Shown piece after piece: positions 33,809 through 36,610 of a DNA stretch of 64,000 bases. The position numbers and the translations under genes are program-made. Origin of the DNA: Erythrobacteraceae bacterium CFH 75059. Lineage in GTDB: Bacteria; Pseudomonadota; Alphaproteobacteria; Sphingomonadales; Sphingomonadaceae. The notes beneath the pieces are model-generated. The model had not been told where the DNA came from and ran no database searches. It saw only the letters and a list, made by a program, of their open reading frames with translations. The stretch's first letter is position 1; each line of letters begins with the position of its first letter. The stretch is from the NCBI GenBank assembly GCA_004331795.1, contig SJSR01000002.1:248001-312000 (forward strand), written 5' to 3'.

Positions 33809-34954
33809 ATGATTGCGAACACGCGCGAAGCCGGGCAAGGGGTGGTGATTGCCGCCACGGGGCTGTTCACGCCGCCTCACACCATCACCAACCGGGAACT
33901 GGTCGAAAGCTTCAACGCGTATGCGGCCCGCGAAAACGCGCGCAACAGCGCCGCCATTGCGGCAGGCATGGCCGAGCCGGTGGCGGAGAGTTCCGAAAGC
34001 TTCATCCAGAAGGCCAGCGGCATCGAGGCGCGTCACGTCATGGACAAGGCGTCGGTGCTCGACCCCGACATCATGGCGCCGCGCTGGCCGGAACGCGGCG
34101 ACGACGAGTTGTCGATCATGGCGGAAATCGGAGTCGCCGCGGCGCGCGATGCTCTCGACCGTGCCGGGCGCGAGGCGCGCGACGTCGACGGGGTGATCTG
34201 CGCCGCGTCGAACATGCAGCGGCCCTATCCGGCGATCGCGATCGAGATTCAGCAGGAGCTGGGCATCGACGGCTTCGCCTTCGACATGAACGTGGCGTGT
34301 TCGTCGGCGACCTTTGCGATCCAGTTGGCTGCCGACAGCATCGCGGCAGGCAATGCGCGCAGCATCCTCGTGGTCAGCCCGGAGATCACCAGCGGCCACC
34401 TTAACTGGCGCGACCGGGACAGCCACTTCATCTTCGGTGACGTCGCCACCGCCGTGTTGGTGGAGGCGGCCGCGCACGCGGGGACGGACGGCTGGATGAT
34501 CCTCGGCACGCGGCTCAAGACCGTGTTCTCGAACAACATCCGCAACAATTTCGGCTTTCTCAACCGCGCCTCGCCCGAAACCATGAACACGCCCGACAAG
34601 CTGTTCGTCCAGAACGGGCGCAAGGTGTTCAAGGAAGTGGTGCCGATGGTGTCCGAGCTGATCCTTGAAGAGGCGCGCAGGCTGGACCTCGACCCGGCGC
34701 GCCTGCGCCGGCTCTGGCTGCATCAGGCGAATGCGGGCATGAACAGGCTCATCGCGCAGCGGGTGCTCGGCCACGAGGCGGACGAGGACGAAAGCCCGAC
34801 CGTGCTCGACCGGTACGGCAACACGTCGAGCGCGGGGTCCATCATCGCCTTCCATCTCCACTCCGCCGACCTGCGGCCGGGCGACACCGGGCTGCTGTGC
34901 AGCTTCGGCGCCGGCTACTCGGCCGGACTCGTGTTCGTGCGCAAGGCCGCGTGA
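33809..34954 (+). CDS. Beta-ketoacyl-ACP synthase III-like enzyme
   Basis: A 381-residue thiolase-fold condensing enzyme. The catalytic triad is visible: Cys164 in NVACSSATFAIQ, His305 in WLHQANAGMNRLI and Asn338 in YGNTSSAGSI. It is longer than FabH (about 320) because of an insert around residues 40-75 (ENARNSAAIAAGMAEPVAESSESFIQKASGIEARHVMDK), a form seen in alphaproteobacterial FabH homologues. It should join an acyl-CoA to malonyl-ACP to start fatty acid or related chains; acyl specificity is unknown. It stands in front of the psd/pssA phospholipid genes, 70 nt away. Confidence 0.9.
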   Translation: MIANTREAGQGVVIAATGLFTPPHTITNRELVESFNAYAARENARNSAAIAAGMAEPVAESSESFIQKASGIEARHVMDKASVLDPDIMAPRWPERGDDELSIMAEIGVAAARDALDRAGREARDVDGVICAASNMQRPYPAIAIEIQQELGIDGFAFDMNVACSSATFAIQLAADSIAAGNARSILVVSPEITSGHLNWRDRDSHFIFGDVATAVLVEAAAHAGTDGWMILGTRLKTVFSNNIRNNFGFLNRASPETMNTPDKLFVQNGRKVFKEVVPMVSELILEEARRLDLDPARLRRLWLHQANAGMNRLIAQRVLGHEADEDESPTVLDRYGNTSSAGSIIAFHLHSADLRPGDTGLLCSFGAGYSAGLVFVRKAA

Positions 34955-35024: not shown

Positions 35025-35768
35025 ATGGGGGGTGACAAACTCGACAACCGCGGCAGCGGGGATGCGCGTCAGGCCTGGCCGGCGATTCAGCGCGACGGGC
35101 GCAAGGCGGCGGCGATCGCCGGGGCCGGGGGCGGTGTGCTGTATCTGCTCGGCTGGACGCTGCTGCCAGCGCTGCTGATCGGTGCCGCCGTGATCATGGT
35201 GTTCGTCTCGCGCGACCCGGAACGGGTGGTGCCGCAGGGGCGCCAAATCATCCTCGCGCCCGCTGACGGCCGTATCAGCCGCATCGAAGAAGTGCCTGTT
35301 CCGCCCGAACTCGGCGCTTTGCTGTCCGGCACGGGAAGCCCTTCCGCCCTGGTTGTGCGCGTCACCATCGCCATGTCGGTGTTCGGCGTGCAGGTGTGCC
35401 GCTCACCGGTGGCGGGGACGATCGAGAGCGCTCTGCTGATCCCGGCGCGCACGCCCGCCGCCACCCTCGGGCTTGCGGGCGAGGCGGGCGAGGCGCAGCA
35501 TCTGGCGGTGCGCATGGCAGACGGCGTCGCCGTCGGCGTGAGCCTGTTCGCCGGAACGCCGGGGCAGTGGATGAACGCCTTCGTCAAAAGCGGCGACATG
35601 CTCGCGGCCGGCCAGCGCATCGCCATCATGCGGCTGGGGCGTGAGGTTGAGCTGTATCTTCCGCAGGGAACGGGATCGCAGGTCGTGCTCGGGCAGCGCG
35701 TGGTCGCCGGCGAGACCCGGATTGCGGAGGTCGGCGCGACCGTCTTCATCGAAGGATTGAGGCATTGA
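35025..35768 (+). CDS. psd: Phosphatidylserine decarboxylase homologue lacking catalytic residues
   Basis: A 247-residue protein aligned over its length with short-form Psd, an inner-membrane enzyme that makes phosphatidylethanolamine using a pyruvoyl group formed from Ser in a Gly-Ser self-cleavage site. The N-terminal membrane helices and VSRDPERVVP...ILAPADGRIS (Asp81) are kept. However, the usual SVFDVHxNRxPVAG reads SVFGVQVCRSPVAG (Gly121, Gln123, Cys125), and the usual RFGSRVDVYLP reads RLGREVELYLP, with Arg206 in place of Ser. So self-processing and decarboxylation seem impossible. The frame is intact and it overlaps pssA as TTGA. It is probably a pseudoenzyme or a new-function homologue; pssA next door supports the family call. 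Confidence 0.82.
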   Translation: MGGDKLDNRGSGDARQAWPAIQRDGRKAAAIAGAGGGVLYLLGWTLLPALLIGAAVIMVFVSRDPERVVPQGRQIILAPADGRISRIEEVPVPPELGALLSGTGSPSALVVRVTIAMSVFGVQVCRSPVAGTIESALLIPARTPAATLGLAGEAGEAQHLAVRMADGVAVGVSLFAGTPGQWMNAFVKSGDMLAAGQRIAIMRLGREVELYLPQGTGSQVVLGQRVVAGETRIAEVGATVFIEGLRH

Positions 35769-36610
35769 ACACCGGTCCACACGAGCGAGAGCCGACGGAG
35801 GAGCTGAAGCGGATCGGCCCGAACGCGGCCGAGAACGAGCCGCGGTTCCAGCGCGGGCGCCACCCGGCCGGGCTGCAGTTGCGGGCGGTTCTGCCGAACG
35901 CGATCACTGCGGCGGCCCTGTGCTCCGGCCTGACCGGCATCCGTTTCGCCATTTCCGCGCAGTGGAGCCTCGCGATCCTCGCCATCATCCTTGCGGGGCT
36001 GCTCGACGGAGTGGACGGCCGCATCGCCCGGCTGCTGAAGGCCCAGTCGCGCTTCGGTGCCGAGCTCGACAGTCTGGCGGATTCGCTTTCGTTCGGCATG
36101 GCGCCGGCGCTGATCATCTATCTCTGGTCGCTGCAGGCGCTGCCGACACTCGGATGGTTCGCATCGCTCGCCTTCGCGATCTGCTGCGCACTGCGTCTGG
36201 CGCGGTTCAACGCGCAGATTGATGTCGACGACCAGCCGCACAAGTCGGCCGGATTCCTGACCGGAGTCCCTGCTCCGGTGGGCGCGGGCCTTGCCTTCCT
36301 GCCGTTCTATCTGTGGATGGCGACGGGCAACGCGGTGTTCCGCGACGCCGCCGTCGTCGGTCCATGGCTGGCGCTCATCGCCTTTCTGATGATTTCGAAC
36401 CTGCCCACGCTCAGCTGGACATCGCTGAGGCCGAGGCGCACGGTCCGGCTTGAGGTCATTGCGCTGGTCGGGCTGGTCTTCGCCGCCCTGCTTCTCGAGC
36501 CGTGGTGGGCGCTCGCCCTGTTGTCGGGCGCCTATCTGCTGCTGATGCCGGTTGCGATCGTTCGTTTCGCCGGGATCAAGCGGCGACGGGCAGCGCGTCC
36601 GCGCTCCTGA
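35765..36610 (+). CDS. pssA: CDP-diacylglycerol--serine O-phosphatidyltransferase
   Basis: A 281-residue membrane enzyme making phosphatidylserine from CDP-diacylglycerol and serine. The CDP-alcohol phosphotransferase motif is complete: DGVDGRIARLLKAQSRFGAELDSLAD (about residues 80-105). Eight or so membrane helices follow, e.g. LPTLGWFASLAFAICCALRLARF and VIALVGLVFAALLLEPWWALALLSGAYLLLMPVAIV. The TTG start at 35765 overlaps the psd stop; a later start is possible because the first 35 residues are hydrophilic. All active-site Asp residues are present, unlike the partner gene. Confidence 0.94.
   Translation: MNTGPHEREPTEELKRIGPNAAENEPRFQRGRHPAGLQLRAVLPNAITAAALCSGLTGIRFAISAQWSLAILAIILAGLLDGVDGRIARLLKAQSRFGAELDSLADSLSFGMAPALIIYLWSLQALPTLGWFASLAFAICCALRLARFNAQIDVDDQPHKSAGFLTGVPAPVGAGLAFLPFYLWMATGNAVFRDAAVVGPWLALIAFLMISNLPTLSWTSLRPRRTVRLEVIALVGLVFAALLLEPWWALALLSGAYLLLMPVAIVRFAGIKRRRAARPRS

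Follow-up and report, generated by a model that had tools for sequence, protein, structure and literature searches.

Phosphatidylserine decarboxylase (Psd) of E. coli is described as a dimer of heterodimers in which an S254A substitution abolishes cleavage, His144 mutants lose decarboxylation while partial cleavage persists, and the D90A/D142A proteins are uncleaved in lysates but cleaved after purification (PMC7952604). Pseudoenzymes are already known, and among them is a dead paralog of another decarboxylase, AdoMetDC (PMC10211241; PMC5201418). For this paralog, the prozyme of Trypanosoma brucei, both heterodimerisation with the active enzyme and activation of it were shown (PMC5201418). The literature searched, a partial collection with most subscription journals outside it, yielded no catalytically dead Psd.

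We analyzed a 64-kb window, the whole stretch of DNA under study (G000:C10:248001-312000), from a sphingomonad genome (G000; 2.26 Mb, 17 contigs, 99.96% complete). With the short-form bacterial Psd (PRK05305, NF003679; PF02666), in the form of the sphingomonad ortholog beside pssA, the Psd encoded in the window shares its length, an N-terminal hydrophobic segment, the PADG motif, the C-terminal scaffold, the gene order and the overlap with pssA. Unlike the short-form Psd, it has no Gly-Ser, DVHxNR, QIAGLVARRI or NER and falls below the NCBI cut-off. It resembles the T. brucei prozyme (PMC5201418) in being an apparently dead decarboxylase paralog kept beside an enzyme that is, or in G000 is predicted to be, active; it differs in that heterodimerisation and activation of the active enzyme were demonstrated for the prozyme, and in that the presumably active Psd of G000 is only a remote relative of the window protein.

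Loss of the catalytic motifs at a conserved locus

The features of the locus are listed below.

33809 to 34954, forward strand: beta-ketoacyl-ACP synthase III (KAS III), the conserved upstream neighbour, which also adjoins psd in genus mate G001 (NF005703, 607 bits against a cut-off of 304)
35025 to 35768, forward strand: short-form psd, 247 aa, predicted to be catalytically dead (pseudo-Psd; from the ORF list, NF003679, PF02666 and the motif alignment)
35115 to 35210, forward strand: membrane segment near the N-terminus (about residues 31-62), predicted from hydropathy; still hydrophobic, with relaxed sequence
35265 to 35267, forward strand: Asp81 of PADG, retained, equivalent to E. coli Asp90 (profile alignment; E. 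coli numbering from PMC7952604)
35385 to 35402, forward strand: GVQVCR (residues 121-126) replacing DVHINR, with the residues equivalent to Asp142 and His144 of E. coli Psd gone (motif alignment)
35544 to 35573, forward strand: LFAGTPGQWM (residues 174-183) replacing QIAGLVARRI (motif alignment)
35637 to 35642, forward strand: Gly205-Arg206 (codons ggg cgt) replacing the self-cleavage Gly-Ser (sequence and motif alignment)
35765 to 35768, forward strand: TTGA overlap of the pssA start and the psd stop, read in the sequence; ATGA in G001
35765 to 36610, forward strand: pssA, CDP-diacylglycerol-serine O-phosphatidyltransferase, Asp motif intact (PF01066, 84.8 bits against a cut-off of 22)

The psd frame contained neither an internal stop nor a frameshift. 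Its product belonged to PF02666 (65.5 bits, cut-off 22) and scored 152.3 bits with the short-form model NF003679, under the equivalog cut-off of 252. We aligned 56 Psd sequences, 48 from the same family and eight from other families of the order, the rows being loci in hand that scored above 60 bits with the window protein; the sample was tilted towards similar genes because 30 loci had been chosen as best matches to that protein. In this alignment the other 55 sequences all carried (D/N)VH(I/V)NR, including the catalytic His of the DxH motif, where the window copy had GVQVCR with Gln123. They likewise all carried FGSR, Q(I/V)AGL(V/I/L)ARRI and NER (residues 155-157), which were LGRE, LFAGTPGQWM and GEA in the window copy, while PADG (residues 79-82) was retained by all 56. 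Counterparts of E. coli Asp90, Asp142 and His144 were placed by the profile alignment and that of Ser254 by the Gly-Ser motif. Among 45 other family members, 67 columns were at least 98% conserved; the window Psd kept 36 of them and G001 kept all 67.

The first-pass annotation of this DNA had reported Gly205-Arg206, the GVQVCR sequence and the retained Asp81, and all three were read both in the sequence and in the alignment of 56 Psd. The window Psd is thus an enzyme homolog that lacks the catalytic motifs, and this loss, together with the selection analysis given below, supports the earlier proposal of a pseudoenzyme. Judged from its residues, the predicted protein could not form a pyruvoyl group by the known route; neither self-cleavage nor decarboxylation would be expected of it, and it almost certainly lacks phosphatidylserine (PS) decarboxylase activity. 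In annotation, the window psd should not be labelled an active decarboxylase. The N-terminal hydrophobic segment probably spans the membrane or anchors the protein in it. A phmmer search of the PDB with the window protein gave no match, and the matches of a five-sequence profile in the PDB were limited to two Psd sequences, covering positions 62-149 of the profile. The best Foldseek match was the decarboxylase PsiD (E 0.029), from a poor predicted model (mean pLDDT 44.4), and was not used as evidence.

The gene sits at the usual sphingomonad locus, KAS III - psd - pssA - rpsB - tsf, and the order in G001 (spoU - KAS III - psd - pssA - rpsB - tsf) was the same as in the window. Identity to G001 was 71% for SpoU, 76% for KAS III, 79% for PssA, 94% for RpsB and 85% for Tsf, as against 43% for Psd. 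The pssA product scored 99.4 bits with TIGR00473, slightly below the cut-off of 107. It contained D-G-V-D-G-R-I-A-R-(8)-G-A-E-L-D-S-L-A-D, which we take to be the CDP-alcohol phosphotransferase motif with every motif Asp present, and its PF01066 homology and this motif place it among the CDP-alcohol phosphotransferases. The TTGA overlap and the full set of active-site Asp residues, both claimed earlier for pssA, were confirmed in the sequence. An AAGGA at 35752-35756, 8 nt ahead of the pssA TTG, is likely the ribosome-binding site of pssA.

Distribution, descent and the second Psd of the genome

When the top match of each genome was taken, a procedure in which a weak second copy could stay hidden, NF003679 matched 385 of 397 genomes of the family (383 above the cut-off) and 112 of 118 genomes in a sample of the order (110 above the cut-off). 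The two family genomes below the cut-off, by best E-value per genome, were G000 and G330 (80% complete), in which the short psd was split over two contig ends; the 12 family genomes with no short-form match were 66-96% complete. In the order sample the failures were G000 and G478 (62% complete), in which a single contig carried the short psd as two fragments that lay in different frames. The short Psd of G001 was canonical. A contig scan with the window protein for similar dead motifs returned only two Streptomyces loci, both with canonical NVHVNR and FGSR. From these sequences, the dead state is lineage-specific as far as surveyed and was seen in one genome. Second short Psd copies scoring 80-94 bits with the short-form model were present in another family of the order (L087, L088 and L089, from G443, G465 and G435, respectively). 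As candidate dead Psd they were ruled out by intact DVHVQR and LGST, and a low score alone therefore does not mean a dead protein.

Trees of Psd and PssA were built with FastTree and are given here without branch support. The window Psd grouped with that of G001, its tip measuring 1.56 where the median tip was 0.18, and in the PssA tree G000 was not among the six longest tips. The shared gene order, the grouping with G001 and the long tip of the window Psd together point to a vertically inherited gene that changed fast in a single lineage.

G000 had two PF02666 matches, the second being an E. coli-type, long Psd (G000:C1:434371-435030, 201.5 bits) with intact PADG, DYHRVHM and LGST; across 282 residues it was 72% identical to the corresponding protein of G001. 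It shares the Pfam family with the window Psd but differs from it in having kept the catalytic motifs, and similarity between the two was hardly detectable, the best BLASTP stretch being 14 residues (E 0.078). The first-pass annotation had listed a second, active Psd elsewhere, another route to phosphatidylethanolamine (PE), or a pseudoenzyme as alternatives. A second gene with intact motifs was indeed present, its activity being indicated at the sequence level only. The intact second Psd means that PE supply needs no new pathway, and since a second Psd and a pseudoenzyme hold together, the other PE route is not needed as an explanation.

An additional PF02666 gene that scored higher than the short one (171.8 to 208.3 bits) was found in 13 of 35 genomes of the same family (G000 to G034), namely G000, G001, G002, G009, G010, G013, G014, G015, G026, G027, G028, G029 and G032. 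The short-form model matched in all 13, above the cut-off in 12. Among the 11 genomes for which its motifs were read, the additional gene had DYH with LGST in nine and YHH with HGST in two. Retention of the short locus beside another Psd is consistent with a task left uncovered by the second enzyme, but in 12 of the 13 genomes that task may simply be catalysis.

Several other members of PF02666 were noted in the course of this survey. L015 (G027) and L016 (G028) represent a further sphingomonad Psd type with MYHHFH and HGST instead of DYHR and LGST. In G010, two long-Psd matches of equal score (206.1 bits) lay on one contig (G010:C2:11993-12652 and 2571152-2571811), reflecting a recent duplication or an assembly effect. 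An ORF from position 872 of L053 (G053:C8) encodes a relative of PF02666 that is 473 residues long, begins with a signal-peptide-like N-terminus and carries YHHFH and GGS; it may be a decarboxylase resembling Psd that is exported. G045 (100% complete) and G025 (96% complete) had zero PF02666 matches, and in these genomes PE may be made by other means or be absent.

Selection on psd in the G000 lineage

Since a single variant genome was found, a branch test on G000 was used in place of a dN/dS analysis of a variant clade. We fitted codon models to nine genomes, using one set of branch lengths for psd and pssA. The omega of psd was 0.264 on the G000 branch and 0.069 in the background; a model with equal omega was worse by 23.5 lnL units, one with omega 1 by 20.8, and a history of normal constraint and then full neutrality by 9.2. 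A gap of 9.2 was reached in none of 80 sets simulated under this last history (highest 1.97), 40 having even and the other 40 uneven constraint across sites, in which codon frequencies and branch lengths were fixed and the real pssA data were taken as given. Fitting separate regions gained 7.17 lnL in the real data and at most 2.99 across the 80 simulated sets. On the control branches G001, G026, G328 and G086, analyzed with G000 kept in the background, omega was 0.081, 0.055, 0.044 and 0.078, respectively. A fit to psd alone gave no omega difference and stretched the G000 branch to 17-20 units; it was uninformative because synonymous change was saturated, and sharing branch lengths with pssA mended this.

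The open frame had been put forward in the first-pass annotation as an argument against simple decay. We simulated neutral evolution 120 times, on the assumption that the GC-rich composition of fourfold sites is the mutational equilibrium (an AT-biased spectrum would give more stops); 26% of the runs were still free of nonsense events after 100 amino-acid changes, and 17% after 125. The open frame is thus weak evidence by itself, and we rejected it as proof of selection on the window psd.

We then scored change along the protein for 202 of its 247 residues, setting aside 45 with an ambiguous ancestral state. On the G000 branch 79 of the 202 had changed. Retention was 0.85 at residues 63-98 and 0.88 at 212-247, and it was 0.48 at 99-134, 0.43 at 135-160, 0.29 at 161-185 and 0.67 at 186-211; the N-terminal tail and the membrane segment stood at 0.67 and 0.52. 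A permutation over the eight blocks, which were drawn after viewing the alignment, gave none as uneven in 20,000. A free segment scan (15 to 120 sites) located the changed block at residues 100-185 (p 0.0043); in a previous scan, which used four window sizes, p was 0.097. With separate backgrounds, omega went from 0.092 to 0.125 in the scaffold (63-98 and 212-247, segments picked after viewing the alignment) and from 0.061 to 0.319 in the rest; with a second outgroup set the values were 0.109 to 0.121 and 0.055 to 0.367. Residues 1-62 had an omega of 0.293, and the N-terminus was therefore relaxed, yet its hydrophobicity was retained. These values indicate that the two scaffold segments are under near-normal purifying selection and that the catalytic part and the N-terminus are less constrained. 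Down the conservation classes, starting with the most conserved, retention was 0.54, 0.71, 0.67, 0.47 and 0.40. That the top-conserved columns were not better retained is expected if catalytic sites were freed, but it also fits neglect.

Selection on the window protein seems to have continued through the loss of catalysis, as judged from one genome and simple codon models. Maintenance by selection is indicated by the branch and region omegas and by the simulations, for a single genome and with the post-alignment choice of scaffold segments, and we consider it probable that the window Psd was kept by selection as a protein.

Proposed role and rival explanations

Our main reading, to which we assign a probability of roughly 0.6, is that the window psd is a vertically inherited short-form psd of a sphingomonad that became a pseudoenzyme in one lineage and is kept as a membrane-anchored, non-catalytic protein. 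The long Psd, with its intact motifs, would convert to PE the PS that PssA supplies. The short Psd would remain an uncleaved chain anchored in the membrane and would be kept for a non-catalytic role, possibly that of a PssA partner, which would hold or stabilise this enzyme or bind its PS product. Partnership with PssA would be the likeliest role because psd directly precedes pssA with overlapping stop and start codons, a gene order and overlap that suggest linked synthesis of the two proteins. We propose this particular partner only tentatively, and the regulator of PssA or lipid-binding protein suggested in the first-pass annotation is likewise a tentative role. By analogy with the trypanosome prozyme, the pseudo-Psd could also be a subunit that cannot be cleaved, is anchored in the membrane and, by sensing PS or serving as a scaffold, sets the activity of PssA or the long Psd; we regard this bacterial counterpart as a speculative suggestion.

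Simple decay was disfavoured. The window psd would then be a pseudogene, redundant beside the second Psd of G000, on which selection had lapsed and which had acquired no stop or frameshift yet. The redundancy, the roughly fourfold rise in psd omega on the G000 branch, the loss of conserved columns as readily as others and the quarter or so of neutral runs (26%, at 100 amino-acid changes) that lacked a nonsense event would all suit it. The same history, however, fitted worse by the 9.2 lnL units that no simulated set reached, and change was uneven along psd without a frameshift, so that we consider decay unlikely. Tuning of the long, active Psd by binding of the dead short one would have a precedent in another decarboxylase, the AdoMetDC of T. 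brucei with its dead paralog (PMC5201418; PMC10211241). Both Psd occur in G000, and the E. coli enzyme is itself built of paired heterodimers (PMC7952604). The near-zero similarity of the two proteins means that a shared dimer face is not evident, and we hold such tuning to be quite unlikely.

The psd frame might instead be kept open solely to bring ribosomes to the overlapping start of pssA, and overlaps of the same kind in the window (TTGA) and in G001 (ATGA) agree with a translated leader. This predicts free change away from the junction, yet residues 63-98, far upstream, were retained at 0.85, and pssA has an AAGGA of its own; the explanation is very unlikely. That the window Psd is still an enzyme, with another substrate or other chemistry, draws on the retained scaffold and is highly improbable, since the Gly-Ser, the His and the ARR motif are gone and no pyruvoyl route is left; new conserved residues cannot be recognised from one sequence. 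Sequencing or assembly error would account for dead motifs in one genome only, and canonical residues in relatives together with a local error had been named in the first-pass annotation as what would overturn its reading. The relatives were indeed canonical (55 of 55), but the local error did not hold up: the 143 amino-acid differences to G001 were in frame and spread over psd, and five neighbouring genes were 71-94% identical to G001 where psd was 43%, which a local sequencing error does not explain. The chance of such an error is close to nil.

If the dead protein does have a job, a scaffold role of Psd would be separable from catalysis, and that role might also exist in sphingomonads with a short Psd and another PF02666 gene. 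The window psd would then offer a naturally occurring separation-of-function allele with which to ask how the synthesis of PS is linked to its decarboxylation. As a separate observation on pssA, its start codon was TTG in the window and ATG in G001, a difference that may lower pssA translation.
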